Positions 1,272 to 39,885 of a stretch of DNA of 64,000 bases are shown here, one piece after another. A program made the position numbers and the translations under genes. The notes under the pieces were generated by a model, which was not told the origin of the DNA, ran no database searches, and was given only the letters and a program-made list of their open reading frames with translations. The stretch comes from a virus, in IMG/VR virus record IMGVR_UViG_3300050821_004237, positions 1 through 64,000 of that record; one strand, written 5' to 3'. Each line of letters starts with the position of its first letter. The first letter of the stretch is position 1.

Positions 1272-1272
1272 T

Positions 1273-19204: not shown

Positions 19205-19936
19205 CTATTCCTTATTTTCCAATTGGAGTGCTATCTGATCTTCCGCTTCTTTTTCTCGCTTGCGAGCGAAATACGCCTTTAATCCTTTGCTGACATTTCT
19301 TTTATGCTCCTCTGATTTTGGTCCGCGCATATTGGCGACATGCTCAGGAGAATGCGGCCTGCCTTTTTGCTTCGCAATTATTTTCGCAATTGTCTCAGGC
19401 TTTTGCGGGTGTCCAATGCCTTTTTTGGCTGCAGAAATCCGTGCACGCGTCTCAGGACTTCGCTTTGTACCCCTATGAATTGCGGCTAATGCCTCGACAA
19501 CGTGTCTCGGCTTTTTCTTTCCCTTTCCACGCTGATTACCCATTGCCGCGCGAGAAAGCTTCTGGCGAGTTTCTTCAGAAATTGGAGGGCGTGCGCGTAG
19601 TATTTCACTGATTTGCTTTCTGCGTTCTTCCGTAAACTTTATGCCAGAAGAACCTTCGCCGCCGCTGGTGTAGTTGCAAAGATCCGCGCCGTCGTTTTTC
19701 CAAAATGCAATGCGCTCAATTTCCCTTGAAAAGGCATCTTTCTCGGATAGATTGTCGGCAATTATTCTGACTTCGACTATCAATCCAAGGCCACTCAGCT
19801 TCTGTTGAACGCGCTTGTGATATTTATTACGCACGCGCATATCGTGCGCACGCATTCCATTGCCTTTTCCGACGTAGAAGCATTCGCCGCGGTCTGGCCG
19901 CCAGTGCTCGTAAACATAAAATTTCTGATCACTCAT
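19205..19936 (-). CDS. GIY-YIG homing endonuclease with NUMOD3 repeats
   Basis: The 243-aa product has a GIY-YIG nuclease domain at 1-95 (FYVYEH and FYVGKG, a basic RNKYHKR stretch, then FSREIERIAFWKN) followed by at least four NUMOD3-type DNA-binding repeats (ISEETRQKLSRAAMG, RSPETRARISAAKKG, QKPETIAKIIAKQKG, HSPEHVANMRGPKSEEH). It cuts DNA at recognition sites to spread its own gene. It sits between two virion genes without disturbing them and looks AT-richer than its neighbours, consistent with recent insertion. The target is probably near the gene junctions at 19.2 or 19.9 kb. Confidence 0.9.
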   Translation of the reverse strand: MSDQKFYVYEHWRPDRGECFYVGKGNGMRAHDMRVRNKYHKRVQQKLSGLGLIVEVRIIADNLSEKDAFSREIERIAFWKNDGADLCNYTSGGEGSSGIKFTEERRKQISEILRARPPISEETRQKLSRAAMGNQRGKGKKKPRHVVEALAAIHRGTKRSPETRARISAAKKGIGHPQKPETIAKIIAKQKGRPHSPEHVANMRGPKSEEHKRNVSKGLKAYFARKREKEAEDQIALQLENKE

Positions 19937-21133: not shown

Positions 21134-21504
21134 TACGAGTAACTCACGCTGACCGTCTGGCCAGAACCTGGCACTACCAATATACCAAAACTGCAAGGAA
21201 AATTAACCACATACGGTTCAGTGCCAACCGTGTCCGGGATTATATAGATCGGTTTAGTGGTCGCCGTGAGTGTCGCGCCATCGTAAATCGTGCCCACCGC
21301 GCCTCCAACTATGACGCTCACCGAGCACACTCGCCCGGCTACTGCCTTGACGACCGTTGGCGCCGTGATGGCGGCGGCGTTAATGACGCCTTGCACATTC
21401 AGATAGTTCTGCGCCGCGGTGGCGAGTGCGGTAACGATATTCTTTATCGCGGAAAGGACATCTGAGGTCGACGCGGTCTGGGCGGTAGGATTAGGGCCTG
21501 CCAT
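21133..21504 (-). CDS. small structural protein (123 aa)
   Basis: Helical Ala-rich N-terminus (DVLSAIKNIVTALATAAQNYLNVQG) followed by a beta-rich part with VCSVSVIVGGAVGTIYDGAT and GILVVPGSGQTVSVSYS. Overlaps the upstream gene by one base. Proteins like this occur between neck and tail genes in many phages as accessory virion proteins. Confidence 0.65.
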   Translation of the reverse strand: MAGPNPTAQTASTSDVLSAIKNIVTALATAAQNYLNVQGVINAAAITAPTVVKAVAGRVCSVSVIVGGAVGTIYDGATLTATTKPIYIIPDTVGTEPYVVNFPCSFGILVVPGSGQTVSVSYS

Positions 21505-23633
21505 CAGATTTTACCGTCTTGACTGAAGCGATACCTAATGAGACCGATTCTCCAGAAACTTCCTAAATCATTACTCGCGATCAGCACCGAGACTAATCGA
21601 CCGCGCAAGCGCGTGTAGAAAAAAGGCGTTATCTGAGTGACCGCGTAAGGCCCGAAAACTTTCGGCGTATCTGATGGGTAATCCTTGACGAAAAACGAAA
21701 TATTAATCGTCGATGTTTTAGGCTGCGAGACCTGGCCATATTTAAAATCCGGCCACACCCAGTCGATGAAGGTTTTGAAATCCCCTTCCGCCATCGCGAA
21801 GTATCCAGTCTGAAACGATGAGGCCATCGCCGTGCCATCCGCATCGTTCGAAGTCTCATGCTGCTGCAGCAGATCGGTCAATGGATCGGCGCCGATGGGT
21901 GGGCCTAATACCGACTGATCTACCCACGCCGAGCGCCCCAGCGTACCGTAATCCCATTCGTTCAAGTACACGTTGTACTTAACGTAAGAATCGACTTCGC
22001 CGCTGCCCCCGGTGATAGACGGATAAAACCAGCCAATCTCGCCAAAGCGTGAGTTCACTGCGACACGAATCTTCTGCGCGTGAGATACCCCACTGATGGG
22101 GTCAATGGAGGTGTCAATGTTTTGAAATACGATATCCCACACCGAGCACAGCAACGGCTGTACGCCGTTTCCAGAGAGCGTATAGAACTGCGCGAAACTC
22201 ATCCAATAGTAGATGCCGTTGAAGGACGCTGCGGCCTTTCGCCCGATAAGCCCGCACCCGGTGCCAATCTCATTGAAGCTGTATACAAACGGCTGACCGA
22301 TGTACTGCATCGACCAGACATCAATATCGGTCCAAATTATGCCCTGTTGCGGGCCTTGCACGCCTGCGACTATCTTCGATCCCTTTGGAATGCGAAACGA
22401 TCCTGCTTGGTTAGTCACCAGCGCTATCCACTGATTTAAATTCCCGATATCGCACCAGTTAATCAGCAACGGGTCAGGAATCCCGGTCTGCGTCGATCCC
22501 CAAGCGATGATCTGTCGCTGCGGCATCGCGACGAATATCCCGTCATTCACCGGTGGCGCATTGGTGATTATAGTCGCGCTCGAGGCGCCTTCATCCCACT
22601 GATATATGGGTTGAAACGGCGTCGTTTCGAACGGCTGATCCCGATCTGGGCACGCGATTAAAATCTCGCCGAAATTATCCAGCGTCCAGTCGATTGCATC
22701 TATCGCCGTTCCGGTTGATGGGATAACTGGCGTGCCTGTGCCGTAGCCGCCTAGGCCGTAACCACCGATGCCGTAGCCTGAGCCTCCAGGGAGTGCGCCT
22801 TGGCCGAAACTGTAGATGTATTCGGCCAAGCCGTTATTCATCGTTCCAGAAGCGGTCGACGTAGCTTGAGTATTTGATTGGATCGTAAAGTTATTCACAT
22901 CGATCAGCGATTGCACGACGTAGTTACCGAAAAATGTAATACCGCCTACCGTTGTGGCAACAAGCACTGGAAACGTCTCGCCGATCGCATAAGTGTAATT
23001 AGGCAAATTAACGGTAACCGTGATCGACATATTCACAGTATTAAATGTCGGCAGCACTGCGGTAGTTGAGTTCGATGTCGCGGGCAACAAGTTTCCCAAC
23101 TTATCGCGCGCAAATACCGTATACGCATCGGCCGCTAAGAAGCCGTCAGGATCGCAGGCGTAGAGACCAAATAGAATAACGCCACCAATGGATATCTGCG
23201 TCGCGATATACACAGTATTGAAATGCGTGACTCCTGGCACTGTGGCGTCAGTAATTTCAATGCTGGGATTTCCAGCAAAGGACTGCGCCAATGGAGCTAC
23301 ATTATCTGTAAGCGCGGTCGGCGTGATGTTGTCTATAGAACCATTAGTGATAACCGAAAGCTGCGCAGAATCTGTGCCGGTGATTGTTTGCGTGCCGACG
23401 GCTAGGTGAGCGTTTAGGTTAAGGTCTTCCCATGCCCACAGCGCTCGCACTATGGCCGGTTGCGCAAGTGCGTTGAAGCGACTCCAGCCGCCTAACTTTT
23501 CGACTAATACGACGCCGTTTGGATCGTATTTGTAGCGTATTAAATTCGACTGCGAGACGCCTGAGTTCTCGTTAAGAGTTGGCGTCTCTTCAGTGTTTAC
23601 GCCCGAAATAAGCTTGAGGGCAGCGTGTGGCAT
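21504..23633 (-). CDS. packaged-DNA stabilisation / tail hub protein (P22 gp10-like)
   Basis: At 709 residues it has the arrangement of the P22 gp10-type stabilisation protein: an N-terminal region with RYKYDPNGVVLVEKLGGWSRF, a central block with ILIACPDRDQPFETTPFQP, WCDIGNLNQW, GSFRIPKGSKIVAGVQGPQQG and WTDIDVWSMQYIG, and a C-terminal FGEIGWFYPS...YVKYNVYLNEW. The family caps the portal channel and forms the tail nozzle. It follows an adaptor gene and precedes small structural genes, consistent with neck assembly. Confidence 0.85.
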   Translation of the reverse strand: MPHAALKLISGVNTEETPTLNENSGVSQSNLIRYKYDPNGVVLVEKLGGWSRFNALAQPAIVRALWAWEDLNLNAHLAVGTQTITGTDSAQLSVITNGSIDNITPTALTDNVAPLAQSFAGNPSIEITDATVPGVTHFNTVYIATQISIGGVILFGLYACDPDGFLAADAYTVFARDKLGNLLPATSNSTTAVLPTFNTVNMSITVTVNLPNYTYAIGETFPVLVATTVGGITFFGNYVVQSLIDVNNFTIQSNTQATSTASGTMNNGLAEYIYSFGQGALPGGSGYGIGGYGLGGYGTGTPVIPSTGTAIDAIDWTLDNFGEILIACPDRDQPFETTPFQPIYQWDEGASSATIITNAPPVNDGIFVAMPQRQIIAWGSTQTGIPDPLLINWCDIGNLNQWIALVTNQAGSFRIPKGSKIVAGVQGPQQGIIWTDIDVWSMQYIGQPFVYSFNEIGTGCGLIGRKAAASFNGIYYWMSFAQFYTLSGNGVQPLLCSVWDIVFQNIDTSIDPISGVSHAQKIRVAVNSRFGEIGWFYPSITGGSGEVDSYVKYNVYLNEWDYGTLGRSAWVDQSVLGPPIGADPLTDLLQQHETSNDADGTAMASSFQTGYFAMAEGDFKTFIDWVWPDFKYGQVSQPKTSTINISFFVKDYPSDTPKVFGPYAVTQITPFFYTRLRGRLVSVLIASNDLGSFWRIGLIRYRFSQDGKI

Positions 23634-23636: not shown

Positions 23637-24431
23637 TCACGAACCGCGCGTGGGAGTGGCGGCCGTAGGAGTGGTGTACCCAGTCCAAGCGGAGTTCTCT
23701 AGGTTGCGCGCGTTCTCATCATTGATTGCGCCTAGGCGCAGCGCCTGGTATTGCTTCTCGTACGTCATCCCCATCGCCGGGTCATCGCTAGCGACGCCAA
23801 AGTTACGCTGAAATGCCGATATGTAAATCATGCTTGCCATCAGCAGCATGTCCGAATAGTACGAACTGATATAAGTGAATTTCGTATCAGCAACACCCGC
23901 CGATGCGTACTGAAACAGCGATGGAATCTTAATCAATCCAGTGACGCGAATCGAGTACGCGAAGTTTGGCGTAGGCCCGAGCAAAATATTATTCACCGTA
24001 TCCGCGCCATCGCCGAAATTACTCCCATACATCGCGTAGAACTGCGGCGTGCCAGCATTAGCTAATCCTGAGTAGCAATTCTGAATTAGCTCTTTTGAAA
24101 CCGGCAGAAGCGTAGATGAATTGACTACTTGAGAGCCATTCATCTGTAATAGTTCGAGAGTCTCGACGGTGAAGAAATCATCTATCGGCAGAGGAAAAAT
24201 CGGGTTACTCGCGGTGAGCGTGTAGACATTAGATGTCTGACCTGCTAGCAAATCTAAATCGCGCTGTATACGCCCTTCGGAATAATTCAAAATCATCGGC
24301 ACGATTGTCTGCAACGGTGCATCAACGAATTGCCACACGCCACTGACTTCGGATGCGGTCACTACCGCCATCGCGGCGACTTGCTGAATCCATGCGTTGA
24401 AACTAAGCGGATTGGTGTTTGGGGCGCTCAT
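23637..24431 (-). CDS. virion neck-region protein (264 aa)
   Basis: ATG 24431 overlaps the upstream stop (ATGA). The product begins [25 protein letters not shown] and has a C-terminal [33 protein letters not shown] with an [14 protein letters not shown] helix that I recognise from podoviral structural genes adjacent to gp10-like proteins. It probably belongs to the head-tail connector. No enzyme signature is seen. Confidence 0.7.
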
Positions 24432-25456
24432 GTGATGTCGTACACAAAGCAAACGCCGCCAGTACCGGGGATGCCTAGGCTTCTCACTCCAGTCGTCCAG
24501 GCGGTAGAATTTGCGGCTAGAAAGAATGTCAAGGCCGCACTACTGGCATTCACAAAGGCGGTGATATTTTCGCTGAATACCGAGTTATTTTGGCCAATGG
24601 TTGAGCCTGCGGCGAATTTAGCCGTGACCGCTTGAATGGCGGTAGGCAAATTAGTGATGCCGAATGTTCCTCCTGAGCCGGTGGTGCCGGTTGCTATTCC
24701 GATAAACAGCGTCACCGAATTGCCGATCAGCGTCCACGAGCAGGGCATCGTGGCCCCAGAGAGTCCATTGGTGCTAGCCGTAAAAGTCCCCGTGGTGACG
24801 GCACCGCCGGCAGGCCCGGTTGGTCCAGTTGGGCCTCCCGCGCCCGTGGCTCCGCTGGAGCCCGTGCTGCCTGTCGATCCTGTGGCGCCAATCGGACCTG
24901 TGGGTCCAGTCGGACCACCCGCACCCGTGCCGCCGCCAGCACCTGTGGGTCCAGTGGGTGCTTGAGGACCTGTGGGCCCAGTGGGACCACCGGCCCCAGT
25001 GAGGCCGATCGATCCAGTTGGCCCCGTGGGTCCAGTCGCCCCGTTGCTGCCGGTAGAGCCGGTATTCCCAGTCGGTCCACTTGAGCCGGTCGGACCGGTT
25101 GCGCCGACGCCTGCGGGGCCCGTTGGACCAGTGCCAGTAGGGCCCATCGCGCCGGTTGGTCCAGTAGCGCCAACGCCTGGACCGGTTGGGCCGCCTATGC
25201 CAGTGGGGCCTGTTGGGCCAGTTGGACCTGGCACACTCGGTCCTGTCGCCCCAGTCGGCCCGCTCGCCGGTCCCGTGGGACCAGGGGCGCCAGTGGGGCC
25301 GGTTGGTCCAGCCCCAGGAGGTCCGGTGGGACCACCTAAGTTCGCAATCTGCAGCACCGTGGTGCGCATCGATGTGCCAGCCTGCACTATTTCCAATTGC
25401 TCATCGCCCGTGAGTCCGATCGATTGCGGCAGCATCGGTATGGTGACGTTGCCCAT
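24428..25456 (-). CDS. collagen-like fibre protein (342 aa)
   Basis: Residues 1-40 ([19 protein letters not shown] onward) form a virion-anchor segment. Residues 42 to about 220 are Gly-Pro-Thr/Gly-x-x collagen-like triplets, and the last 120 residues form a C-terminal beta-rich trimerisation or knob domain ([21 protein letters not shown] and on). Such proteins form long stiff trimeric fibres. It is the second of three collagen-like proteins in this region. Confidence 0.85.
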
Positions 25457-25457: not shown

Positions 25458-26441
25458 TTACGGCCCCCGCTCTTGCTCTAAGAAGAACGCGCCATTCTCA
25501 AGCAAGATGTCACCAGAATTGTCTTCGAGAGCGAAGAAAAAATCTCCAATTGGGGTCTGCATGCACTGCTCAAGCTGGATAAATCCGGAGCCATCCTCGA
25601 GGAAAAACATCCCCGTTCCATCCTCGGTCTCAAGGAAGCATATCGCGGCCTCGACTTCGGGAAATAGCGTCGGCCCGAAGATCTTCGGAATGCGTTTGTA
25701 GCCGCGCGGCAGGCCAACAAGCGCTGTGATAATGCGCGTCGTTGGTGTCAAGAGCGACTGCGCCGGGTTAGCTCCATAGGTCATATACGTGAACGCCGTG
25801 GCCGTCGTGACATTGACGGAATAGAAGCCACACGCTGGCGCGTAATTCAATCCCTGCACTGCTACTTGCGATGGACCTATTACGCCATCGCCTAATTGCG
25901 TCGAATTTTGCAGCCCATGCACCGCCGAGCATGTGACGGTGACGGTGGCTGAGCCGTCGCCGGTGACGGAGAGTATTTGTAGTGGCACGCCAAATGGCGC
26001 CTGCACCACGCCAGAGTACGGCATCACGGCATTGGCATCTAAGCCGACAGGTCGGCCGAAGGGGAATGGCGTGCGATTCTCGCAGTCTTCGGTGACGCGA
26101 AGTAAATCTGACTGGACAGGCAGGCCGGTGATGGGATGCACCGAGAAGGGGATGGATGCGGCGCGGTAGTTGTTTTCGGCTACGGTGAAGTCTTGGACGC
26201 GCGCTTGAATGATCGGTTCAGGATCTGCGGGCAACGTGATAGCGCGCAACTGCTCCTGCATATTGTCGCGGCAACGATTGCAAACCAGGATGCGAAGGTT
26301 CTGCGGCTGTACGCCACGCCAGTCAAACTGCCAACTGAGATTGACGAAGTTATAGCGGAAGCCGCACCTGTCGCAAATCGCATGGGCTTGCGGTTTTTTA
26401 GCCGAGGTCCTAGCGCGACCGCTTAAACTTGCATAACTCAT
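25458..26441 (-). CDS. structural protein with zinc ribbon and C-terminal LEDGSG repeats (327 aa)
   Basis: Residues 23-57 contain CDRCG and CNRC, a zinc-ribbon pair unusual in a virion protein. The middle is beta-rich. The last 60 residues repeat a pattern of (F/L)LE-D-G-(S/T)G five times: [18 protein letters not shown] and [16 protein letters not shown]. The repeats resemble short aspartate-rich tags seen in phage fibre proteins. Role unknown. Confidence 0.65.
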
Positions 26442-27145
26442 TGCCGGTAATATCCGCCAACCATTGGCGAGATGTACACGGAACTGGTTTCTACGTTCTG
26501 ATCCGCGAAATCGTTATAAGCTTCATCCGCTAGTGGCTTAAGCATCGGCACCTTATCCTGTGCCCAGCTTAATGCGAGACGATATGCTAGTCCTAGCACA
26601 TAGGCCTCCAGCGCATATGGCTGAATTTCCACCTGCGTGCCGTTTGCCATAACAGAATCTTGCGTCTGTCGCAGGCGATAGTATTTGAAGCAACTCTGCG
26701 TGCCATCTGGCACGGGCCAAAGAGTTACCGTCGGGGCGAGTAATCGATCGAACCAGAATGTAGTTGGGAATCCAATTGACTGCTTGTTCGCGTAGCTCGC
26801 ATATTCAGTGCGGCTGATCGGCAAAATCAGACGATCAATTCCAGCCGCGCCAGTGTTCAGAGTGATATACGCATCCAGCATCACAATCGTATTGGAAGGT
26901 ACCGAGTACGTTGATTGACCGCGGCATAGCGGTATCTGATCTAGCTCGACCTGCCATAAATTCACGCCCTTCGACGACCACCTCAGCATCATCATATTGG
27001 TAGCTAAGCGCGCGTCCTCAAAATGCTGCTGAGTCAATGCAGTGCGGCGAACACCACATAAACCATACGCGTATAGCACCGCTTCGCCCATCGATGGAGC
27101 GAAGTTAAATGTGCCTGATGTTTTCGGCGGATTCGGCGTACTCAC
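26438..27145 (-). CDS. head-tail adaptor (P22 gp4 / tail accessory factor-like)
   Basis: The 235-aa product is largely helical and carries MGEAVLYAYGLCGVRRTALTQQHFEDARLATNMMMLRWSSKGVNLW, then YSVPSNTIVMLDAYITL and a late YALEAYVLGLAYRLALSWAQ. This layout matches portal-bound adaptors of P22-like and related short-tailed phages, which close the head after packaging and receive the tail hub. It overlaps the glycosyltransferase gene by 4 bases. Confidence 0.8.
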   Translation of the reverse strand: MSTPNPPKTSGTFNFAPSMGEAVLYAYGLCGVRRTALTQQHFEDARLATNMMMLRWSSKGVNLWQVELDQIPLCRGQSTYSVPSNTIVMLDAYITLNTGAAGIDRLILPISRTEYASYANKQSIGFPTTFWFDRLLAPTVTLWPVPDGTQSCFKYYRLRQTQDSVMANGTQVEIQPYALEAYVLGLAYRLALSWAQDKVPMLKPLADEAYNDFADQNVETSSVYISPMVGGYYRQ

Positions 27146-28203
27146 GCAGCCTTCACCTTATCTTCGCAAAATTTCAAATTCTGCCGCAGCCTTAAATCAT
27201 CGCCGTCAATCTCAACGGCGTTGCGAGCATGCTCCAGCGCCAATTCATACAGTCCCATGTTATACGCCGCAATGGATGCGGTGTCGTGCGGCTGGCTGCC
27301 CCACACTGCCGGATCTACCGTGTAGACTTTCTCGCGATTCTTTATTCCTAAGCAGCATAGCGCCGCGCCCAAGGCTTCCGGCCAGCGCGATAGTCGATAG
27401 CACAGCATGGCAAGTTCCGCCCACGGCTCGCGCGTATCTGGCGCTTCGTTCGTCGCGCGCCGGTGCCAGCGCAGCGCCTCATCCCAATTGCCTAACTCCT
27501 GGTAGCAGCGGCCGATGACGCGCATGGCGTAGCAGCGCTCGTTGGGCCATGTGGCGCGCGGGAGCGATAAATAACGCTCGGCTTGTGTGATGGCATCTTG
27601 CCAGTGCCGGTTAAATGAAAGCTCCCGCGCATAGTAAAACGCATTGCGCGGACAGGATGGATCTTCCTCGATTGAGACGCGCAGAAGATCAAGATACTGG
27701 CCGCGTGATTTAGTGGGGTCTGGCTTATGGACCACCATAAGCATATCTGTCTGCGCCCATACTGTCGGTACGCGATCTGCAACCGGGTATTCGTGGCAAG
27801 GATGGTGCCAGCGAATGCCATGTCGGGCGTGGATCTTCTCGTACTGAAATGCTATCCCGCAGCCCCAGTCAAATCCATATCGCATCTGCGTAGTGCCTGG
27901 TACCCATACGCGCTCTATCTCCGCGCGCCACCCAGGCTGCAATACCTCATCCAAGTCGAGCGACACGCACACATCGATATCATTCGGCAGCAGCGCGAGC
28001 GCGGCATTTCGCGCATCATCGAACCGCCATGGGGTGATCCTAATATTGACCACTTCCGCATCATTCTCGCGCAGTATTTCTTGAGTCCCGTCAGTAGATC
28101 CGGTGTCTGCGACAAATATAAGATCTGCATCGCACGCCGCATCGCAGAAACGTTGCGCGTGCAATTTTTCGTTCAAGGCGATAGCGTAGACGGCAATCTT
28201 CAT
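27142..28203 (-). CDS. family-2 glycosyltransferase with TPR repeats (353 aa)
   Basis: ATG 28203 overlaps the fibre stop (ATGA). The N-terminus [15 protein letters not shown] is the GT-A opening, followed by [14 protein letters not shown] and the SLDLDEVL acidic (DxD-like) motif, all typical of GT2. From about residue 195 to 350 there are TPR-type helix pairs ([68 protein letters not shown]). GT2-TPR enzymes transfer sugars to proteins or glycans. Its placement directly after a collagen-like spike gene suggests virion glycosylation, though host-surface modification is possible. Confidence 0.88.
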
Positions 28204-30317
28204 CCGATGTAATCCACCAAGCAATAAAGTCCCGTAAAAATCCCGGCTCTCCCAGCAGTATCTATCACTTGCACCGTGCGTGCCAAATCAGTAGTCATAA
28301 CGAAATTAGGGGTCACCGAGGTCATGGCGCTCGCTGCTACAGGAGTGGACGCATTGGCGCCTGATATCGTCGCAAGCACCGTCGGCGTCCCTTCGGTAGT
28401 CTGAATGGAATAGTTGTACGCACCTCCAGCGCCTGAGCCTGCCGGGTTCCAATAGCGTACGCGTGTGATCATGGCATTTAGAGGCAATCTAAAAGTTAGG
28501 ATGCCGCTATTGATCGGCCAATCAGAATTGGTGCCAACAAAGCTTATTACTTGCGTCTCGGTCTGACCGCCGCAACTCACATTCCAATTGACATCGGAGT
28601 CAACCACTTCATGCCACCCTACGGTGCTGGCGTTATTGCCATTGCGGCATTTTCGAAAGCGTACGCGCGGGAATCCTCCGGTGTTGCCGTTATTGGTAAC
28701 GCTGATAAAATTCGCTGCGGAGTTATTCTGCAGCAGCGTGCAGCCTTCATACAAGATGTCGTTTTGAAATTGGAAATTATTGACGTTGCAAACGTAGTTA
28801 TGGATTCCAGATAGTTGAGAGTCTCGAAACGTAACAATTGGTCCAGGCTGATTCACGAAGTTAAATGTACACAGCACATCAGTTGCGGAGCGTGACGCGA
28901 CCTGAGAGGACTGATCAAGATTTACAAAACTGATATTTCCGAAATTCCAATTGCTTTTCATCAGCAATGAGAAATCGCTCGTATGCTCAATGCGCAATCC
29001 ATTGGAGCGAAATTGCTGCACGCCTGCTGCATTTGGCTGACCTAGCAGATTGAATATGTACGTTGCAGATGTCGGCCCATTGGCGGATATATCGCAATCA
29101 TCGACATTGAACTGGCCGCCGAAACTGGCATTTATCCACGGTCCTTTCATGTCCCAAAACTTGCACTTGGTCCACCAGAAATTTAAGAATTGATCGGTGG
29201 CATTAGTGGCTATCGAAGATCCATTCGCATTCGGCGTAATTGCTGATCCCATGAAAGTTGCCGATACCTGAATACCGGTAGGAGATGCGGCAACGATGAA
29301 ATATGTCGTTCCGGTAGCAATCTGTCCGGCGCCAGTGCCTACCGTGGTACCGAAGCTGCATGTCTGACCGACAGCAAAGCCGCCATTGATATTCGTCATC
29401 GCAAGCGTCGCATTGCCGCTTGATATCGTGCAATTAGCAGGCGCCGCTATATAAAGCCAATTGGCGATTGTTCCTGCGCCCGCATCCACCGTGCAGCGAT
29501 CCCATCGCCATTCGCTATTATTATTTGCACCGCTGACGAGCGTAATATTCTGCCAATTATTTGCCCATGCGCAATCTGAATGGTTGAAATACTGAATGTT
29601 CGACAGTCCACCTTGCTCTGAGGACTGATAGAAATCTGAGGTGGTGGAATTTCCGAAAAAGGTAATGCCTTCGAACTGCACATTGCCAATCAGGCGGTTA
29701 TAGCAAAGAGGGCCAGGCGTCGACGGCGTGTAGACAATCCATGTAAGGCTAGACCCGGCGCCCTTGAACTTAAGTCCCGACATCTTCACGGTCGGTCCCT
29801 TAGTGATCCCAGGCATCATCGCGTAGGCTTGGTTGATGTAGAAAATCCCGCCATTCAAAGCAATAACCGCATATCCGCCGAATGCCGATCCCCCAGGTTC
29901 AATGAGCGGATTGCTGATCGCTAAATTATAGGCGGCGATAAATGCCGCTGTGTCGGTTATCCCGGATATGTCGCCAGAGGCACTGAGAGGCGAACCAAGG
30001 ACGCCGAGAAGATTAGATCCTGTGCCAGCAGCGCCAGTGGGACCGGTAGGTCCAGTGCCAGCGCCCGTTGGACCGGTGGGGCCAATTGGTCCGGTCGGAG
30101 CGACACCAGCAGGCCCGGTGGGGCCGGTAGCCCCTATCCCTGGGCCAGTGGGGCCGCCGACGCCTGTGGGCCCTGTTGGGCCCTGCACACCAAATGCTGG
30201 GCCAGTGGGGCCAGGATTTCCCATAGGTCCCGTCGGACCTTGCGGGCCAGCAGTGACCACTTGCACGACATTGGTATTGGTTTCTTGAACGATGACTTCG
30301 GTTGGCGGCACGCTCAT
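28200..30317 (-). CDS. collagen-like tail spike with beta-helix domain (705 aa)
   Basis: Residues 1-23 are a short anchor, 24 to about 100 are Gly-Pro-Thr triplets, and the remainder is a beta-helix-type domain with [36 protein letters not shown] and many short Asn/Ser-rich turns. The first block (GTDDTAA-like) is typical of phage tailspikes that form right-handed parallel beta helices, often with polysaccharide depolymerase activity; no active site can be assigned. [14 protein letters not shown] segment and an [22 protein letters not shown] insert interrupt it. Confidence 0.82.
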
Positions 30318-30688
30318 GGCGTCACTCCAGGAGTTACGATCACTGAGCCTTGCAGGAGGCGCGTCACGTTGCCGCTAGAGTCAGTCAGAATTAAATCGTA
30401 AACCCCATTCCACCATGTAAATAGCGCGGTCGCGGTCGCCGGGATATCTAGCGTGATCGTGCCGGCCGTGCCGCCTAGGGTGATGTTCGAGGAAGCATCG
30501 TAGAGGATCGTTGTCGAGAGCGAGAATGGGCGAATCTGCAAATTAGCTGTGTAGCCAGTCAAATCCACCGGCCCGGAAGTGGCGCCGATAGTACCGCATC
30601 CGCAGAAACCCGCAATCCATATGAACACTTTCTCGTAAGTGGCATATTGATTGATGCAGAGGTTATACGTGCCGGTCTGTTGGCTCAT
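30314..30688 (-). CDS. small beta-rich structural protein (124 aa)
   Basis: The product has [58 protein letters not shown]. This pattern (Ig-like beta sandwich with a ...YDLxLTDSSG strand) recurs in phage neck or baseplate-attached proteins and resembles the N-terminal domain of upper baseplate proteins. Overlaps both neighbours by 4 bases. Confidence 0.65.
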
Positions 30689-31260
30689 TCAGCCTTCTTG
30701 CCCTGCGCAGTGACCGTCATCACCGTATCTGTACAAGCCTCTTTGTACCACTTCTGCGCATACTGCTGGCGCTCCGCATTCCATAGATTCATGTCAGCGT
30801 GCAGCGAATAGCCGCCGCCCCACGAGAAGTCGCAATCGAAGCCTTGCGGGTTGAATTCGATATCGATATGCGGCGCATTGGCTTTGCGCCACTCACGCCA
30901 CAGGTAGTAATAGGCGAATTCAGATACTGGTGGCCACTTATGCGTCGGGTCTCCATACGCGCGCTGTGATGCCCAGTGCGGGGTAATGATGGTGCATTTA
31001 CCACCATTGATGAGTACTCGATACATCTCGTTGAAGATATGCACGCGCTCCATCGCGTCGAAGTGCTCGAGCGCGTGGGATAAGTGGATATCTGAAACTG
31101 AGTTATCAGCCCACGGCCATGGCTGGCGAAGATCGGCGACAAGATCTAGACCATCAAAGGCGATCTGATCGACTGACAGATAGCCTTCCATCTTTGACTT
31201 GCCGGAGCACAGATTGAGTTTCAATAGCGCTGCGGATTCTTCTTTTACTACTGCGTTCAT
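30685..31260 (-). CDS. class I SAM-dependent methyltransferase (191 aa)
   Basis: Motif I appears as LNLCSGKSKMEGYLSVD (residues 15-31); a later acidic DLRQPWPWADNSVSD, LSHALEHF and MYRVLINGGKCTIITPHW complete the Rossmann methyltransferase pattern. GDPTHKWPP is a further conserved block in phage relatives. The protein is short and lacks a DNA-recognition domain, so it is more likely to act on a small molecule, sugar or protein than on DNA. It lies between two fibre-region genes and one gene from a glycosyltransferase. Confidence 0.85.
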   Translation of the reverse strand: MNAVVKEESAALLKLNLCSGKSKMEGYLSVDQIAFDGLDLVADLRQPWPWADNSVSDIHLSHALEHFDAMERVHIFNEMYRVLINGGKCTIITPHWASQRAYGDPTHKWPPVSEFAYYYLWREWRKANAPHIDIEFNPQGFDCDFSWGGGYSLHADMNLWNAERQQYAQKWYKEACTDTVMTVTAQGKKAE

Positions 31261-31272
31261 TTATTTTTCCTT

Positions 31273-32010
31273 TTACCACATCATGTCGGCAGGCCCGAAC
31301 GTACCATCCAAATCATGGTGTCCAACTTTTACAGAGCAATCAATCGCGCAACGATATCCGTTTTTTCTGGCGTCCGACCAGAAATATAAATCTTGTGTAG
31401 ATAGACCATCTTTTTTTTGCGTGACGAACCAAGGCTTGCGAAGTTTAGGATCCTTGAAAATCGCGAGACGAAATAGTGTAAACCCTTGTCCGGTACCGCA
31501 ACATTCAATCAATCCGCCGTTTGGATCTGGCAACTGAGGGCGGAAATTCGGCGTTGGGTCTCTAGGGTCGCCCCACGCCTGAAACACGCCGCCCTCTCCT
31601 TTTGTGAAATATCCTCCGCCAATGGCAGCAAATTCTGGATGTGATTCCATGCGTTCAATGAGCTTTATAAGTCCATCCGACGGGGGCGCGTTATCGTGTT
31701 CCAAGCACAGCAGATACTCCCATTGAGAAAGTTCTGGATGCGCGAGAATTTGTTCAATTGCAGTTGAGTAAGCGACGCCTACTTCATCGCCGAGCGCCAA
31801 CCATTTAACCACTCCATTGTTTGGCGGAAACATCAAATTCCACCAAGACAGCATACATTTCGCAGATACTTTTTCTGCAGCAGGGAGTACAACGACAACT
31901 CGCTGTTTTTTCCAACTTCCACCACGCTGCAACCTAGATACTGTCTCCGGCATATTGGTATTGTGGTATCCAGACATATCCGTGACGACCAGTTCTAACG
32001 GCTTACTCAT
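31273..32010 (-). CDS. GT-A-type glycosyltransferase (245 aa)
   Basis: ATG 32010 shares one base with the upstream stop. The protein has the GT-A pattern of an N-terminal (M)SKPLELVVTDMSGYH, a central YLLCLEHDNAPPSDGLIKLI with a metal-binding acidic HDN near residue 100, GGGYFTKGEGG, an aromatic CGTGQGFTLFRLAIF, and a C-terminal GHHDLDGTFG. The arrangement fits phage-encoded glycosyltransferases of unclear substrate. Transcribed just before the methyltransferase. Confidence 0.78.
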   Translation of the reverse strand: MSKPLELVVTDMSGYHNTNMPETVSRLQRGGSWKKQRVVVVLPAAEKVSAKCMLSWWNLMFPPNNGVVKWLALGDEVGVAYSTAIEQILAHPELSQWEYLLCLEHDNAPPSDGLIKLIERMESHPEFAAIGGGYFTKGEGGVFQAWGDPRDPTPNFRPQLPDPNGGLIECCGTGQGFTLFRLAIFKDPKLRKPWFVTQKKDGLSTQDLYFWSDARKNGYRCAIDCSVKVGHHDLDGTFGPADMMW

Positions 32011-32642
32011 CAACTCACCCACGCAATGGTTGCGACGTTCAATGCGGGCGCATCATAGATGCCTGCTGATTGCAGCGCCCATGCCTGACTCGTGCCCCAC
32101 GTTCCATTAAAGGCAACAGATGCTGGAGTCGCTTGAATATTGTAGAGAGCGTTGAACCCGTTATCGGTGCTGGTAGTACCGTTAGACCAACCGGTTGCGG
32201 TAACCGCTTGCGTGTAGGCAGTACCAATGGCCATCAAAGCTATCTCATTCGAGAAATTCGTAGATAGCGGCGACATCGTAGGCGTCGTACTCGTTCCTGT
32301 TGCAGTCGCAGCGATAGATGTATCGATAGTCGGGGTGCCTACGAATCCATTTACTCCAATTCCCCATATGTCGGTGAACCCGCCAGGGGATGCTATAGAT
32401 ATTGTAGGCGTTCCACTCGCATTGGTGATCTTGTAAAAGATCATCATATTCTGAGCGACGAAAGATTCCAGGACGAGATAATTGCCGGTATTAACATTAT
32501 CTGAAACCGTGGCGCTTCCTGGCAATCCACCGCCGGTAGCGAACAAGAGGACTATTTGTCCGATGCCAACACTTCCAGAAAGAGCTATTCCGCCCGGTGG
32601 ATTACCTGACCCGTGAATGCCAGTGACAACGCTCAAGCTCAT
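32010..32642 (-). CDS. beta-rich virion protein (210 aa)
   Basis: The product has alternating Gly/Thr/Ser-rich strands, a GGGLPGSATVSDNVNTG turn and an NGWGTSQAW-like FNGTWGTSQAWALQSAG near the end. No repeat or enzyme motif is visible. It is probably a fibre-tip or fibre-associated protein, judged only from its neighbours. Confidence 0.6.
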   Translation of the reverse strand: MSLSVVTGIHGSGNPPGGIALSGSVGIGQIVLLFATGGGLPGSATVSDNVNTGNYLVLESFVAQNMMIFYKITNASGTPTISIASPGGFTDIWGIGVNGFVGTPTIDTSIAATATGTSTTPTMSPLSTNFSNEIALMAIGTAYTQAVTATGWSNGTTSTDNGFNALYNIQATPASVAFNGTWGTSQAWALQSAGIYDAPALNVATIAWVS

Positions 32643-34282
32643 GCAATTTGTGCTCCGATCGTGCCAACATCAGAGGAGAAGGAACTGGTTAGGTAGCCGG
32701 TAGTGCCGTCAAGAAGTCCCGATCCTTGAAAGATATTTCCACTCGCAGTAACGCCAGTTCCGGTGGGAACAGAATTCGACCCTTGAGATGCATTGTTCTC
32801 AAAAACATAAGGGCCGCCGACTCCCTGACCGTTACACGAAATTCCAAGATTAGCTCGACAGTTGTTTCGATAACACCAAAGCGCCCCGTAGTTCTGTCCA
32901 GTGGGTCCAACCGGAATAGCCATGCCAGTAGTTCCGCCAACATCAATGTTGTAGCAAATCTCCACACTCGACATCACACCGGCATTGCCGCTAACCGATT
33001 GGAGTGGGCTACAGATATATTGAACCGAAGCCACCTGGCAATAGTTGCCCCTCCAGGTGCCGTTCGTGATGTTGCTCTTGGGCATACAAAATTCATCAAT
33101 CGTGAGCGTGGGATCGATGATGAAATTGCCTTGTGCGAGAACGTTCTGGCAACTATAGACAGAGCAAATACAGTAGTTATTCCCTGCGTTTCCAGACTGT
33201 CGATTGGTCTCCGAACAGCCATTAATGAAAATGTAACTCGCAACCGAATTTGTGGGGTTGACATAGTAACTGCTGGCGTTGCTGCCAGCGCTAGATCCAT
33301 ACCCGGAATTGGTCCATTGGTTTATATCCATTGTGGTGCGCGAAGATAACAAGCCGCCACCGTTACCACCGCCTCCACCAATCCAGAAAAATCGACAGTT
33401 CTGCGTTGCAGTGTGATAGCCATTGGGGTTCAAGTTCTGCACGAACAAATCGGCCGAGTGGGCGCACGCAAAAAAGCTATTGGACAGATCTATGTACGAG
33501 GTCAGCGCATCTCCTGGGAATCCCATGTAAGCGGATGGCTTGGTTAAAGTGTTGACCTCGAAACAGGTAGAGCCATCATTAAAATCAGTGGCACTCGCAG
33601 AACCTGCTGGCATCGTGTAGGGGAAAGATGACCCTCGACCTCTGAAATAACACAAGGTGCTGGCATTATTGGTGGTTGAGAAAGATGTGCCAATCGCCTG
33701 TGCCATCGTTTGCCATGGAGCGCTGATCGTTCCTGTACCAGTCGAATCGTTTCCAAACTGAGAATCAAAGAATAAGAATTGCGCGGTGGAACTGGATGTG
33801 CTTACCGTGAATGTGATCGTGGTCGTATTGAGCTGCTGATCGGTGACCAGCACAGAAACAGTCGCGCCGCTGACGGAACCCGTTGGAGTCCACTGCAAGA
33901 CACCGTAGCCTGCGTTTCGTGCATCAACGAATGGCGGATTACTGCCCGTACCCCATGATGTATTCCAAAATGTCGCGCCAATGCTCATGCCGGGCGGCCC
34001 GCTCTGAAGCGAAAACACATACGGGAATGCACCGAAAGCAACGCCTAGAGGAATCTGATACAGCACCGGATTTGTGCCGTCGTAGTATGCCCAGCGATGG
34101 CGCGCGAAGGTATTGGTCTCCGTATCAGGCCGCGGATAGATCTGGATCATCGCCTGTTTGGCATTGATAAAATGCCCAACCGGAAGAAATCCGCTTCCTC
34201 CGCCACCGCCGCTGCCATTGCTAAATACAAAGCCACCAGGCGCATTAGGCACGTGGCCACCAACTTCAAATACCGCGCTCAT
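32639..34282 (-). CDS. tail spike paralogous to the 7.7 kb spike (547 aa)
   Basis: A short N-terminus with a Gly/Ser linker (residues 1-35) leads into the same domain as the spike at 7655-9583: [80 protein letters not shown] and a GAQIA end. The collagen-like part of its paralog is missing. It overlaps the next gene by 4 bases. Adhesin or spike role is inferred. Confidence 0.82.
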   Translation of the reverse strand: MSAVFEVGGHVPNAPGGFVFSNGSGGGGGSGFLPVGHFINAKQAMIQIYPRPDTETNTFARHRWAYYDGTNPVLYQIPLGVAFGAFPYVFSLQSGPPGMSIGATFWNTSWGTGSNPPFVDARNAGYGVLQWTPTGSVSGATVSVLVTDQQLNTTTITFTVSTSSSTAQFLFFDSQFGNDSTGTGTISAPWQTMAQAIGTSFSTTNNASTLCYFRGRGSSFPYTMPAGSASATDFNDGSTCFEVNTLTKPSAYMGFPGDALTSYIDLSNSFFACAHSADLFVQNLNPNGYHTATQNCRFFWIGGGGGNGGGLLSSRTTMDINQWTNSGYGSSAGSNASSYYVNPTNSVASYIFINGCSETNRQSGNAGNNYCICSVYSCQNVLAQGNFIIDPTLTIDEFCMPKSNITNGTWRGNYCQVASVQYICSPLQSVSGNAGVMSSVEICYNIDVGGTTGMAIPVGPTGQNYGALWCYRNNCRANLGISCNGQGVGGPYVFENNASQGSNSVPTGTGVTASGNIFQGSGLLDGTTGYLTSSFSSDVGTIGAQIA

Positions 34283-37107
34283 GCCGTCACATTAGCAAAC
34301 TGCACGGGAGAATAGTTATCTACCGCATTTCCTCCCGATCCTGCTCCGGAAATTGCCGATAGCGCCATAGAGGATGGCATACCAGCCGAGGTCGTGGACC
34401 ATAGTCCCATACCAGGTACGAACTGCATGCTGTTAGCGGGCACTTGACCGATCAAGCCCTGCAACTGCTGCCCAGGGCCCAATGGCACGACAACGTTGCT
34501 AAAGGACATACCATTCGTATTCACGAACGTCGTATTGGTCATTTGGCCGATGAATAGATCGAATCCGCCGGTGTAGTTGACGTTGATCGGTATCGATAGC
34601 CGCCTAATGCCAGTGATGGATGCGTTCGAGGCGTTGCTGGAATTCGTCATCGCGTAGGACTGCGAGCCGCTCGAGAGCAGCGTCAGGGTGGATGCATTCA
34701 GTGAATACAGGCCCACATACGCCGATATCGTCTGCGCCATTGTGGAGACCGCAAGCACTGCAGCAGAAGCTGAAATCATGATATCTGCGCGGCTCGCGGT
34801 GAACGGGAAAGGCGCAATTGCAGGATAAACTTGCACGCTTCCTAAGCCATTTTGCGTCACGGTCGTGCTCTGCACCGGGCCTAGAGGCTGGAAGAACGAG
34901 AGCTGCGGAATAGCAGCGCCAATCGAAATAGTTGATGCATTGACGACGACTGAAACTAATCCGGTGCCTGAAATAGAGGATGTTGCGGGGGCCGATAGCA
35001 ACACAGATCCGTTCGACATGCCGCCGGATATCGCACCGCCCAAAGAATACGATATGGACTGGTCCGCCACGGTGCTGCTGGAAGATTGGCCAACGGTATT
35101 TCCCTGAAAGAATAGGGCCTGAGTTGTGGCGACAATTCCGCCAACGCTGCCGGCGGTGTTGGTGAAGCTAACGCCATTGCCATTGGTGAAAGAAAGTGTT
35201 GAGAATGTTGACGATCCGCCGCCAGCCGAGAATGCTTGGCCAGATTGGGTATAGGATGCGGTTATCGCCTGTCCGGCACTGCTACCGAATGATATTCCAT
35301 TTGCGTTGCTAAATGAGATCGTGCCTGACGTGTAGGTAGTGTTTGAGACGATGACACCGCTGATGCCAGTCTGCGCGCCACCTGCATTCGCGCCGCTGAT
35401 CGTGATAGTCTGCGCGCCAGCCGCGCCGCTCGAGACGGACAGGGTAATGTTATTTCCGCCCGCTAATACAATCTGTCCGCTATAGATGCCGGTATTGCCG
35501 AGAGTATTACCACCCGTTGAGACACCGGCCGACAGTTGCGCGCCTCCTCCTGCGCCAGCGCTGATCGTTACAGAAGCGCCGTTTTGGGACAGCGTAATAT
35601 TGTTTCCGCCAGCGAGTACTAATGTTCCTGAACTGACGTTAGAGTACCCCGCGCCCGCGGAAGTGCTATTACCTCCAATGGATATTGCCGCCGCGTTCGC
35701 CCCTAGCGAAATCGTTGAACCCGCGACGGCAACGCTGAGATTGCCAGTCCCGGAAATGCTCGAGGTAGCTGGTGCATTGATGGTGATTGTGGCAGCAGAG
35801 CCTGCAGCGCCGGTCGCCTGGGATAGAGATATAGGCCCGGAACCCACGAGGACCACGTTGCCAGTGGATACCGTGCCAGTGGCACCTGCGGTGTTTCCGG
35901 CAGTTGAGACGCCAAAGTTAACGCCGCCGCCCCCGCCACCAGCCGCGCCGCTGATGACATACGAGCCATTGGATACCCCTACTGAGACGTTGCCAGCGCC
36001 AGCGAGCGTCAATTGGCCGATGGTTTGCGTGCCGCTGGTGCCTAAGGTTGTATTGGACGCGGCAAACATCGACTGCGATATGCCGGTTGTGGCTGGCGCC
36101 GAGATGATCAAGCTATTCGAGGACCAGCCAGCCGATATCAACCCAGCCGCAGAGATATTGAAGGAATTTAAGGGATACGCGCTCGAACTGCTTTGGCCCG
36201 TGGTATTGCCGGCGACGAAAATATCCCCAGAAGCGCCAGAATTAGAGGCCCCCGAGATGAAGATCGAGGCCCCTGACTGTCCAATCAGCACATTTCCCTG
36301 GCCAACCAGAGTGAGCGAGCGTGCATCGTAGGTGGACGAAGAGGATTGCCCGTAGGTCTGGGAAGAGCCGTAAAGCCCAATCGTTTGTACCGTCTGACTA
36401 GGCACGTTGATCGACACTGTGCCGGAGCCTCCCGCTGCAGATCCAGAGAGCGTGACATTATTTCCGCCCACCAGCACGAGCTGCTGCGACTGCACGCCGG
36501 TTATACCAGCGGAATTGCCACCAGTGGAAATGCCAGCCCCGGAGAACAGTGGCGGCAGCGTGGGCGCTGAGATAAGGATTGATCCGCCGCTCCAGCCTGC
36601 CGATACCAAGCCGCTGGCGACAATCGAGAGCGATCGCGCATCGTGGGTATTCGAAGTCGATTGGCCGGTGGTATTGCCAAACAGGTACACGCCATCGGTT
36701 TGATTCGACTGCGAAGCCGTGGCTGTGATGGTGCCGTTATTTAGGCCAAATGAGACGTTATTGGCATTGCCGAAGGTCACGCCGCCGAAGGCTCCAGAGG
36801 TCGTGCCGGCACTAATCGATAGGTTCGCTGCGGCAGCCGTATTAGCGGAGATAGTGACGGAGTTGCCGTTCTGCGAGAGGGTGACGTTGTTGCCGCCAGC
36901 CAAAAAGAGTGTTCCAGTGGATACCAGCGACAGCACGCCGGCAGTATTGCCGCCGAAGGACGCATTTATCCCCCCGCCTCCGCCGCCCCCACCACCGATG
37001 TCTGATACAGCAATGCTGAAATTCTGGCCGCCACGGGCAATAGGGATCGCATCACTCGGCTGTGCGGGTGAGCCTGCCGGCAGTTCGGATATCTTCTCGT
37101 TTGCCAT
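34279..37107 (-). CDS. long repetitive tail fibre (942 aa)
   Basis: The N-terminus ANEKISELPAGSPAQPSDAIPIARGGQNFSI resembles virion-anchoring domains. The next 700 residues contain repeats in which GGNT, TGxxSxGxLVLAGGNNITLS, QNGxSVTISA and SAGGNTT-type blocks recur (for example LVLAGGNNITLSQNG and LVLVGGNNVTLSG). This gives a beta-helical fibre shaft. The C-terminal 200 residues (SFFQPLGPVQSTTV onward) are a distinct domain. Role: distal receptor binding. Confidence 0.8.
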   Translation of the reverse strand: MANEKISELPAGSPAQPSDAIPIARGGQNFSIAVSDIGGGGGGGGGINASFGGNTAGVLSLVSTGTLFLAGGNNVTLSQNGNSVTISANTAAAANLSISAGTTSGAFGGVTFGNANNVSFGLNNGTITATASQSNQTDGVYLFGNTTGQSTSNTHDARSLSIVASGLVSAGWSGGSILISAPTLPPLFSGAGISTGGNSAGITGVQSQQLVLVGGNNVTLSGSAAGGSGTVSINVPSQTVQTIGLYGSSQTYGQSSSSTYDARSLTLVGQGNVLIGQSGASIFISGASNSGASGDIFVAGNTTGQSSSSAYPLNSFNISAAGLISAGWSSNSLIISAPATTGISQSMFAASNTTLGTSGTQTIGQLTLAGAGNVSVGVSNGSYVISGAAGGGGGGVNFGVSTAGNTAGATGTVSTGNVVLVGSGPISLSQATGAAGSAATITINAPATSSISGTGNLSVAVAGSTISLGANAAAISIGGNSTSAGAGYSNVSSGTLVLAGGNNITLSQNGASVTISAGAGGGAQLSAGVSTGGNTLGNTGIYSGQIVLAGGNNITLSVSSGAAGAQTITISGANAGGAQTGISGVIVSNTTYTSGTISFSNANGISFGSSAGQAITASYTQSGQAFSAGGGSSTFSTLSFTNGNGVSFTNTAGSVGGIVATTQALFFQGNTVGQSSSSTVADQSISYSLGGAISGGMSNGSVLLSAPATSSISGTGLVSVVVNASTISIGAAIPQLSFFQPLGPVQSTTVTQNGLGSVQVYPAIAPFPFTASRADIMISASAAVLAVSTMAQTISAYVGLYSLNASTLTLLSSGSQSYAMTNSSNASNASITGIRRLSIPINVNYTGGFDLFIGQMTNTTFVNTNGMSFSNVVVPLGPGQQLQGLIGQVPANSMQFVPGMGLWSTTSAGMPSSMALSAISGAGSGGNAVDNYSPVQFANVTA

Positions 37108-38456: not shown

Positions 38457-39371
38457 TTATGTCGTCGGGAAGAAGCCGAAGGCGGCTCGGGGGTTAAAAT
38501 AGCTAAAACTTAGTCTTTGATAGCCCTTCACAAGGAGGTTGTCAGTAGTGAAGTCCACCTGCATATCCGTTTCAAACGGAATTCTGCTCATGAACGCCAA
38601 TCCAGCGATGTTGGTCAACAGGAACCACGCGAAGTTGGAGGTGAGGAAGTCCATGACCATGTAGCCTTCCGGCACGCCGCCGGCCGTGGTCAGGATCGCG
38701 TTCACGTCGTTGTCCGCGGTGCCGGGGCGAAGCTCGGTCTTCAGCAGCCGAATCGCAACCGGTTCTAACGTCGGCGGCACGATCAACTTGCGGCCGCGCG
38801 AGAACATCTTCAGGCCCGCTTGGTCCTTGAAGTTCGTGCGAATCGAGATCATGCCATTAAGCAGCGTCGCTTCGTTCAAATCGACCTGCGTCGCCGGTGT
38901 GTTGGCGAACGTCCCGCCATCGATCGGATGCGCGGTTGAGAAAAGGGCCACACCATCGCCACCGATTGCCGCGTTGTAGGTCGTGCCGGTATTGAGCACA
39001 TTGGCGCCGTAGATTTCCAGCGCCTGGCTGAATGACTCAATCAACCCCAGGTTAGAGGGGTGAAACTGCGTCTTGTACAGATTGTCATCGATCGCCTTGC
39101 GGGTGATCGCATAGCCCAACCCCAGTTCGATGTGCTCCTGGTTGTAGACGTAGCGTTCGCCGGCGTTGTTATCGAAGCCGGTTTGGCCGCCTTCGGTCTT
39201 CAGCTGCGCGAGGCCTAGATACCTCATCTCGGCTGTACGTTCAAGCGCTAACTTGCTGTCAAACTTGGTGAAAACTTTAGAATATTGATTTGGGATTTGC
39301 TCGTACTTTCCACTGATCCCCCTAAGGCCAGGAAGCAAGAGGTCTTTTATTGCTGAAAGATTAACGGCCAT
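38457..39371 (-). CDS. major capsid protein (Mu gpT-like, HK97 fold)
   Basis: The 304-aa product has helical N-terminal KDLLLPGLRGISGKYEQIP, EMRYLGLAQLKTEGG, YVYNQEHIELGLGYAITRKAI, then a P-domain-like LIESFSQALEIYGANVLNTG with GDGVALFSTAHPIDGGTFANTP and a late VPPTLEPVAIRLL. This matches capsid proteins related to the Mu major head subunit gpT and the HK97 fold. It is followed by a decoration gene and preceded by an inserted HNH nuclease gene whose stop overlaps its start by 11 bases. Confidence 0.88.
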   Translation of the reverse strand: MAVNLSAIKDLLLPGLRGISGKYEQIPNQYSKVFTKFDSKLALERTAEMRYLGLAQLKTEGGQTGFDNNAGERYVYNQEHIELGLGYAITRKAIDDNLYKTQFHPSNLGLIESFSQALEIYGANVLNTGTTYNAAIGGDGVALFSTAHPIDGGTFANTPATQVDLNEATLLNGMISIRTNFKDQAGLKMFSRGRKLIVPPTLEPVAIRLLKTELRPGTADNDVNAILTTAGGVPEGYMVMDFLTSNFAWFLLTNIAGLAFMSRIPFETDMQVDFTTDNLLVKGYQRLSFSYFNPRAAFGFFPTT

Positions 39372-39885
39372 TGACGGTCTCCAGAGCCACTATGTGTGCC
39401 CAACTTTGTCCTGTGCGAATCCGCCAAATATGTGTTGACGACACGCCGTATTTTTCGGCTAAAACTTTCTGAGAAATATTCGGAGATGATTTTATGAATT
39501 TAACATCATCTTCCGTGAGACGAGATGTTCCAATCTGCTCTCCGCGTACATCGCGCCGCTTTCGCGAGTCACGATCCGCCATGTTTTCCTTGACGGTTCC
39601 GGGTCGAAGATGCGCCGGATTTATGCACGAAGGCGTATCGCACGCGTGCAAGATATGAAGCCCTTCAGGTATCGGACCGACGAAAACTTCGTAGCTAACG
39701 CGATGTGTCAACCTGGTGTTATTAACCATGTTGAACATCCCGTAACCCTTACCGTTAGTCGCGCCAATCCAGAGCCAGCAGCCGCTTTCGCCAAGACGAC
39801 ACTGATGAAACAGTTTCGCCTTAAGCAAGTCGTTCGCAGAAACTTTCTCGAACGGTACGTACTGGTTGAAAGGAATCTCTCTCAC
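39361..39885 (-). CDS. HNH homing-type endonuclease (174 aa)
   Basis: The HNH core reads THRVSYEVFVGPIPEGLHILHACDTPSCINPAHLRPG, with the first His in LHILHAC and the catalytic-type Asn-His in CINPAHL. The C-terminus is a helix-turn-helix (KVLAEKYGVSSTHIWRIRTG) for DNA binding. It is placed between two head-protein genes, a typical site for such free-standing nucleases. Likely cuts near the capsid gene of relatives lacking it. Confidence 0.85.
   Translation of the reverse strand: MREIPFNQYVPFEKVSANDLLKAKLFHQCRLGESGCWLWIGATNGKGYGMFNMVNNTRLTHRVSYEVFVGPIPEGLHILHACDTPSCINPAHLRPGTVKENMADRDSRKRRDVRGEQIGTSRLTEDDVKFIKSSPNISQKVLAEKYGVSSTHIWRIRTGQSWAHIVALETVNGR

Follow-up and report, generated by a model that had tools for sequence, protein, structure and literature searches.

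Glycosyltransferase and methyltransferase genes among the fibre genes of an environmental podovirus-like phage: a predicted glycosyltransferase of collagen threonines beside a separate glycosyltransferase–methyltransferase cassette

Do two glycosyltransferases and a methyltransferase encoded among the fibre genes of a tailed phage form one system for modifying the virion, or more than one? We address this question in bases 1 to 64,000 (the window) of the 68,871-base IMG/VR virus record IMGVR_UViG_3300050821_004237, which represents a phage known solely from environmental DNA. A minus-strand, podovirus-like structural block houses all three enzymes: a glycosyltransferase with tetratricopeptide repeats (TPRs), here GT-TPR (27142–28224); a class I S-adenosylmethionine (SAM) methyltransferase, MT (30685–31260); and a second, 249-residue glycosyltransferase, here GT-A (31273–32022). 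An initial annotation had treated the three as one set acting on Thr-rich collagen-like fibres. The genes themselves are real and lie where it had placed them, on the minus strand, and the order of transcription is F942, F547, F210, GT-A, MT, SMALL, SPIKE, GT-TPR, adaptor, G327 and COLL, all discussed below. From F942 to the adaptor, consecutive genes overlap by 1 to 4 nt, with the exception of a 12-nt gap between GT-A and MT, and the enzymes are translationally coupled with the fibre genes. Since the enzymes are conserved across many other viral contigs, this gene set is not a product of chance. We hold with moderate confidence that the locus contains two independent fibre-modification units side by side, in which GT-TPR would O-glycosylate collagen threonines, and GT-A with MT would make a methylated glycan on another fibre.

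GT-TPR consists of a GT2-like GT-A domain (approximately residues 8–170) followed by C-terminal TPRs (approximately 226–360), and its likely start is the ATG at 28203, which overlaps the SPIKE stop codon as ATGA. Nearly its whole length matches PHROG 13126, "beta-1,4-glycosyltransferase" (E = 3e-99); the Pfam GT2 family falls slightly under its cut-off, and TPR_1 and TPR_2 score above theirs. The residues of the DxD metal motif, D90, D92 and E93, are invariant among 48 relatives. An AlphaFold2 model (predicted local distance difference test score, pLDDT, of 92) places the C-terminal helices at residues 227–359 and finds the peptide glycosyltransferases SunS and ThuS as its top PDB matches (Z 22–24), with WrtF as the next glycosyltransferase (Z 18). 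A profile of the family reaches GmaR (5e-8), ThuS (6e-8) and SunS (9e-7), in each case via the glycosyltransferase domain; against the NCBIfam SunS equivalog, the window protein scores 20.8 bits, below the cut-off of 350. By fold and kinship, GT-TPR is thus predicted to be a protein glycosyltransferase, and with a GT-A domain bearing a DxD motif, TPRs and the appropriate kin, it fits the GT2-TPR protein glycosyltransferases of the SunS/ThuS, GmaR and SgtA type. A role in DNA modification was set aside in view of its late structural location and peptide-glycosyltransferase fold. In a tree of the family, the clade that holds the window gene consists mostly of phage sequences and lies within a set of bacterial lineages.

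Two collagen-like fibres near GT-TPR are its likely acceptor candidates. The main one is COLL (24428–25456, minus strand; Pfam Collagen, E = 7e-8), located 1.7 kb downstream of GT-TPR, in which 35 of 61 Gly-X-Y triplets have Thr at Y. The other, SPIKE (28200–30317, minus strand), is a 705-residue fibre whose N-terminal Gly-X-Y part (residues 24–100) matches PHROG tail-fibre families and precedes a long C-terminal part of unknown fold; 11 of its 24 triplets in runs of at least three have Thr at Y. In the spike that the initial annotation called Thr-rich and collagen-like, the collagen part is short and N-terminal; the long Thr-rich collagen is COLL, just outside the interval it had marked. The triplets of both COLL and SPIKE contain no Lys, and glycosylation of collagen hydroxylysine, as carried out by enzymes of the LH3, COLGALT1 and L230 type, was ruled out on this ground and because GT-A is not collagen-linked. 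Elsewhere in the window, a third collagen-like fibre (7655–9667, minus strand), whose post-collagen part resembles F547 by eye, adjoins a membrane-type O-acyltransferase (Acyl_transf_3; 6408–7526, plus strand), possibly a surface- or glycan-acetylation gene.

The association of GT-TPR with collagen extends well beyond this window. We counted linkage from six-frame DNA, as Gly-X-Y runs of at least 8 triplets, because greedy gene calling can take the antisense of GPT repeats and so miss collagen genes (as seen in locus L188). Among the viral relatives (the best 80 of 528 encoding stretches), a run occurs within 5.5 kb in 38 of the 41 GT-TPR loci with enough flanking sequence versus 3 of 64 GT-A loci. 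These runs are mostly upstream of GT-TPR and on the same strand, with a median Thr fraction of 0.75 at Y, and their density falls from 16.5 per 100 kb in the 1 kb next to the gene to 4.2 at 5.5–8 kb. An in-lineage control, in which 80 relatives were gathered by the adaptor gene and near-copies collapsed into groups, gave long Thr-rich collagen for 14 of the 16 groups that carry GT-TPR versus 1 of the 12 covered groups that lack it (Fisher p 5e-5, a descriptive value because the length and Thr threshold was picked after a cruder first table). That first table scored any Gly-X-Y run of 6 triplets and returned a p of 0.065, weak because such short runs are near chance level and contigs are truncated; the later one combined the length and Thr threshold with whole-record searches. 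The two GT-TPR groups lacking collagen are contigs that end just upstream, and the lone collagen group lacking GT-TPR arose by merging, with the collagen found in a member that is a truncated contig. Median collagen stretches in this lineage measure 151 residues with 69% Thr where GT-TPR is present versus 21 residues with 32% Thr where it is not, and two relatives with long Thr-rich collagen and no enzyme at the locus (L280 and L290) encode GT-TPR further along the record.

A comparable pattern is found in bacteria, where 69 loci from bacterial genomes encode GT-TPR homologues, many of them 40–45% identical and belonging to spore formers, among them Shouchella, Brevibacillus, Paenibacillus, Cohnella, Desulforamulus and Lachnotalea. 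Collagen genes are enriched near these homologues, at 12.8 per 100 kb in the closest 1 kb versus 1.5–3.2 beyond 3.5 kb, with a median of 68% Thr at Y. On a plasmid of Peribacillus frigoritolerans, a 41% identical homologue directly follows a "collagen-like protein" that contains an extended stretch of GPT/GAT/GDT repeats, and an "exosporium protein C" is encoded nearby. The precedent for such a pair is SgtA of Clostridioides difficile, a 358-residue GT-A plus TPR protein whose gene lies immediately beside bclA3 and which adds beta-O-linked N-acetylglucosamine (GlcNAc) to Thr of the BclA3 GPT repeats in vitro (PMC7157674). What marks that pair, a conserved Gly-X-Thr collagen gene near the enzyme gene, is also found for GT-TPR.

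We conclude that GT-TPR probably attaches sugars to threonines of collagen-like tail fibres. The names given to the family in PHROG and GenBank, which denote a lipooligosaccharide (LOS) glucosyltransferase, would suggest instead that GT-TPR forms a linkage on the host surface or in LOS and that its collagen neighborhood is incidental, and a distant homologue in jumbo phage PaBG indeed has no annotated collagen gene nearby. This we consider highly improbable, given how strongly the gene is linked, in phages and bacteria alike, to Thr-rich collagen close by, and given the in-lineage co-occurrence and a fold closest to peptide glycosyltransferases.

As side observations on this family, the gene immediately after GT-TPR is, in 36 of 78 viral loci, a conserved open reading frame of about 80 residues and unknown function, which does not adjoin GT-TPR in the window. 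Tandem GT-TPR paralogues occur in Firmicutes (L177, L179, L191, L217 and L233), with collagen genes adjoining in L177 and L217. In the Actinomycetia phage DSL-LC01 (L169, positions 1–7083), two collagen genes, a "tryptophan halogenase" gene and GT-TPR are found close together on one strand, and the halogenase is possibly another fibre-modifying enzyme.

GT-A and MT have different associations. GT-A carries a metal motif, EHDN, at residues 108–111 (an alternative ATG start lies at 32010), and matches the glycosyltransferase PHROG 12406 (E = 1e-8) and Pfam GT2 at only 0.11. Residues E108, D110, N111 and H235 are invariant among relatives, and AlphaFold2 (pLDDT 89) gives a confident GT-A fold despite these weak family matches, nearest to STIV A197 (Z 19.9; STIV, Sulfolobus turreted icosahedral virus), the glycosyltransferase domain of LH3 (17.6), mimivirus R699 (16.4) and COLGALT1 (14.7). 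Sharing this fold does not reveal the acceptor. MT matches Methyltransf_11 above the Pfam cut-off (E = 1e-5) and PHROG 6636 (E = 1e-11), and is found just downstream of GT-A in 79 of 80 GT-A relatives, the remaining contig ending at that point. The genes surrounding GT-A and MT vary widely among relatives, in which the pair is embedded in structural genes, and the two form a separate, inseparable cassette. No GT-A was found in 299 genomes of one bacterial phylum, in a search in which four virus records included as positive controls matched.

Could all three enzymes nevertheless serve one pathway, in which GT-TPR puts a first sugar on collagen Thr, GT-A lengthens the chain from it and MT caps the chain, so that the collagen fibres carry a single methylated oligosaccharide? 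All three do lie within one coupled gene run, and the collagen region of BclA has documented oligosaccharide side chains (Daubenspeck et al. 2004, as cited in PMC9614988). We nonetheless regard a single pathway as quite improbable, since just the 3 GT-A loci counted above have collagen nearby, the cassette mostly occurs without GT-TPR and GT-TPR mostly without the cassette, and related phages carry single units (L262 and L268 versus L265 and L291). Relatives in which the enzymes stand without collagen-like fibres, which the initial annotation had named as a finding that would speak against it, were encountered for GT-A with MT and not for GT-TPR. It had also proposed to look for the triple in other phages; all three enzymes were found together only in kin of the window phage, namely L098, L163, L164 and probably L162 together with L002, the last two being partial contigs of one metagenome. 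Modification of fibres, with collagen Thr as the acceptor, is well supported for GT-TPR, and the idea of a single three-enzyme system is not upheld.

The fibre most closely tied to GT-A and MT is F942 (34279–37107, minus strand), a Ser/Gly-rich repeat fibre. Members of its family of Ser/Gly/Thr-rich repeat fibres, which was built from repetitive proteins by single-linkage clustering and may be chained, are found in 82 of 87 GT-A loci and in 0 of 80 GT-TPR loci, and the gene is upstream of GT-A wherever both can be placed. The C-terminal domain of F942 by itself is found in 75 GT-A loci with an iterative profile and in 4 loci with a single-protein search. This variable domain looks like a receptor-binding tip, and F942 is a candidate acceptor of GT-A and MT. 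Between F942 and the cassette lie the fibre- or spike-like gene F547 (32639–34282, minus strand) and F210 (32010–32642, minus strand), the latter rich in Thr, Ser and Gly. In a close relative (L162/L243), the capsid protein is 98% identical in amino acid sequence, F942 93% and MT 95%, and GT-A only 65%; the segment 31287–34283, which spans F547, F210 and GT-A, has no nucleotide match in this relative, and its flanks match at 78–82%. GT-A thus seems to be swapped among close relatives together with the adjacent fibre genes, and F547 or F210 are therefore candidate acceptors as well.

This same tie to a fibre family with a variable, tip-like C-terminal domain would also be expected if GT-A and MT modified a host surface glycan bound by the neighboring fibre, masking receptors against superinfection or against loss of progeny to debris, with GT-TPR still acting on collagen. 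The membrane O-acyltransferase at 6408–7526 makes surface modification plausible for the window phage. We judge this fairly unlikely: both proteins are small, have no evident membrane segment in their sequences and are encoded in the late virion block; no flippase, bactoprenol transferase or Gtr partner was recognized among the window proteins scanned, which represent part of the open reading frames; and the nearest fold to GT-A is that of a candidate viral coat-modifying enzyme, STIV A197.

Two independent units, one for collagen Thr and one for another fibre, remain the most likely explanation, with several independent lines behind the GT-TPR step and a GT-A and MT step that follows linkage and could be receptor modification. 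Several points weigh against it. One group of related phages, L268–L270, encodes a 207-residue collagen-like fibre with 36% Thr, yet up to 63.7 kb of sequence from these phages contains no GT-TPR, and therefore not every collagen fibre has an enzyme. About half of the bacterial loci have no collagen gene within 5 kb (29 of 62 have one, by gene calls), and GT-TPR is linked to SgtA by architecture, gene order and partner, not by sequence comparison. For GT-A and MT, the candidate acceptor is assigned from linkage, and a gene pair that modified the host receptor could also be linked to a receptor-binding fibre.

On this two-unit reading, the TPR part of GT-TPR would bind nascent, unfolded Gly-X-Thr chains, and its GT-A part would transfer a host nucleotide sugar to the hydroxyls of Y-position threonines in COLL and SPIKE, the sugars then stabilizing or coating the fibre shaft by analogy with SgtA and spore BclA3. 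A host origin of the sugar donors is assumed because no nucleotide-sugar synthesis gene was recognized among the window proteins scanned. In the second unit, GT-A would attach or extend a sugar on an F942-family fibre, or on F547 or F210 here, and MT would cap that sugar by O-methylation. The analysis shows which genes are present, which folds they are predicted to have, that their catalytic motifs are conserved, and how the genes are linked and co-occur; from this we infer catalysis, the identity of the sugar, the exact acceptors and the purpose of methylation. More broadly, and as a tentative proposal that we rate at slightly less than even, many tailed-phage lineages may use exosporium-type, Thr-O-glycosylated collagen shafts in which sugar replaces hydroxyproline as the stabilizer of the triple helix, and some, the window phage included, may add a second, orthogonal system that decorates another fibre of that particle with a methyl-capped glycan.

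Further genes noted here, all on the minus strand, include the markers of the podovirus-like block. These are the terminase (48552–50189), portal (45890–48283), major capsid protein (38457–39371), a virion structural protein (21504–23633), an ejection-type protein (14982–19199) and an SU10-type adaptor (26438–27145). The adaptor directly follows GT-TPR, and G327 (25458–26441) lies between the adaptor and COLL. SMALL (30314–30688) is a 124-residue fibre-associated protein that matches PHROG 1084 (E = 1e-22) and PHROG 3304, "L-shaped tail fiber protein assembly" (E = 8e-9), and follows MT in L085, L098 and L162–L164. Besides the terminase, a HerA/FtsK/Zot-like ATPase is encoded at 61944–63584; two likely homing endonucleases are an HNH endonuclease (39361–39885), which adjoins the capsid gene, and a NUMOD3 protein (19205–19936).

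In phages that encode both collagen-like proteins and glycosyltransferases, the enzymes have been ascribed to DNA protection or to change of the host envelope (PMC10202952, PMC7029224); for the GT-TPR family, the evidence points to the fibre rather than to either of these. No description of a dedicated collagen glycosyltransferase of tailed phages, or of the GT-TPR–collagen pairing, was found in the literature searched, most subscription journals being outside it. Thr glycosylation is a known way of stabilizing collagen (PMC3368898). Collagen-like phage fibres are common, and how they are stable without hydroxyproline is not settled; a dedicated, co-occurring transferase allows a direct test in phages of whether Thr glycosylation stabilizes the fibre. 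The pair also connects phage fibres with spore exosporium proteins, and collagen-like fibres produced without GT-TPR may miss their natural coat. The GT-A and MT cassette, tied to one fibre family, represents a second testable system for modifying the virion, or the receptor.

Among known systems, the peptide S-glycosyltransferases SunS and ThuS, which modify Cys of small glycocins, are the best structural match to GT-TPR, with the match extending from the GT-A domain into the helical part, but the window protein is far below the SunS family cut-off. GmaR, the flagellin O-GlcNAc transferase of Listeria and also an antirepressor, shares the GT2 domain and TPR part and differs in its flagellin acceptor. 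STIV A197, closest in fold to GT-A, is also a small viral glycosyltransferase, but it belongs to an archaeal virus and is 18% identical to GT-A; we know of no methyltransferase partner of A197. It is thought to glycosylate a viral coat protein (PMC10551542). Mimivirus L230 offers a precedent in concept for a virus that encodes a collagen glycosyltransferase (PMC9614988), and GT-A resembles the glycosyltransferase domain of animal LH3 in fold; the acceptor of L230, LH3 and COLGALT1 is hydroxylysine, whereas the COLL and SPIKE triplets contain no Lys and GT-A is not linked to collagen. The virion glycosylation sets of actinobacteriophages pair a glycosyltransferase with a methyltransferase (Freeman et al. 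2023, as cited in PMC13313380 and PMC12894461) and are defined by such genes lying inside virion structural genes, as GT-A and MT do; in phage Pound, both are in the structural block, with a GT-A approximately 26% identical (E = 2e-8), but hosts differ, and the stretch examined has no GT-TPR or collagen pairing. The structural block of podovirus ctKR88 (MW202524) has GT-A (57%) and MT (46%) as tandem genes, encodes a fibre of the F942 family two genes upstream of them, and differs in having no GT-TPR match in the stretch examined. Finally, SgtA–BclA3 shares with GT-TPR and its partners a single enzyme of approximately 360 residues, with a GT-A domain and C-terminal TPRs, encoded beside a GPT-repeat collagen-like gene, and Thr acceptors, which here are only predicted; the setting there is the C. 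difficile exosporium, and here it is the tail fibres of a phage.

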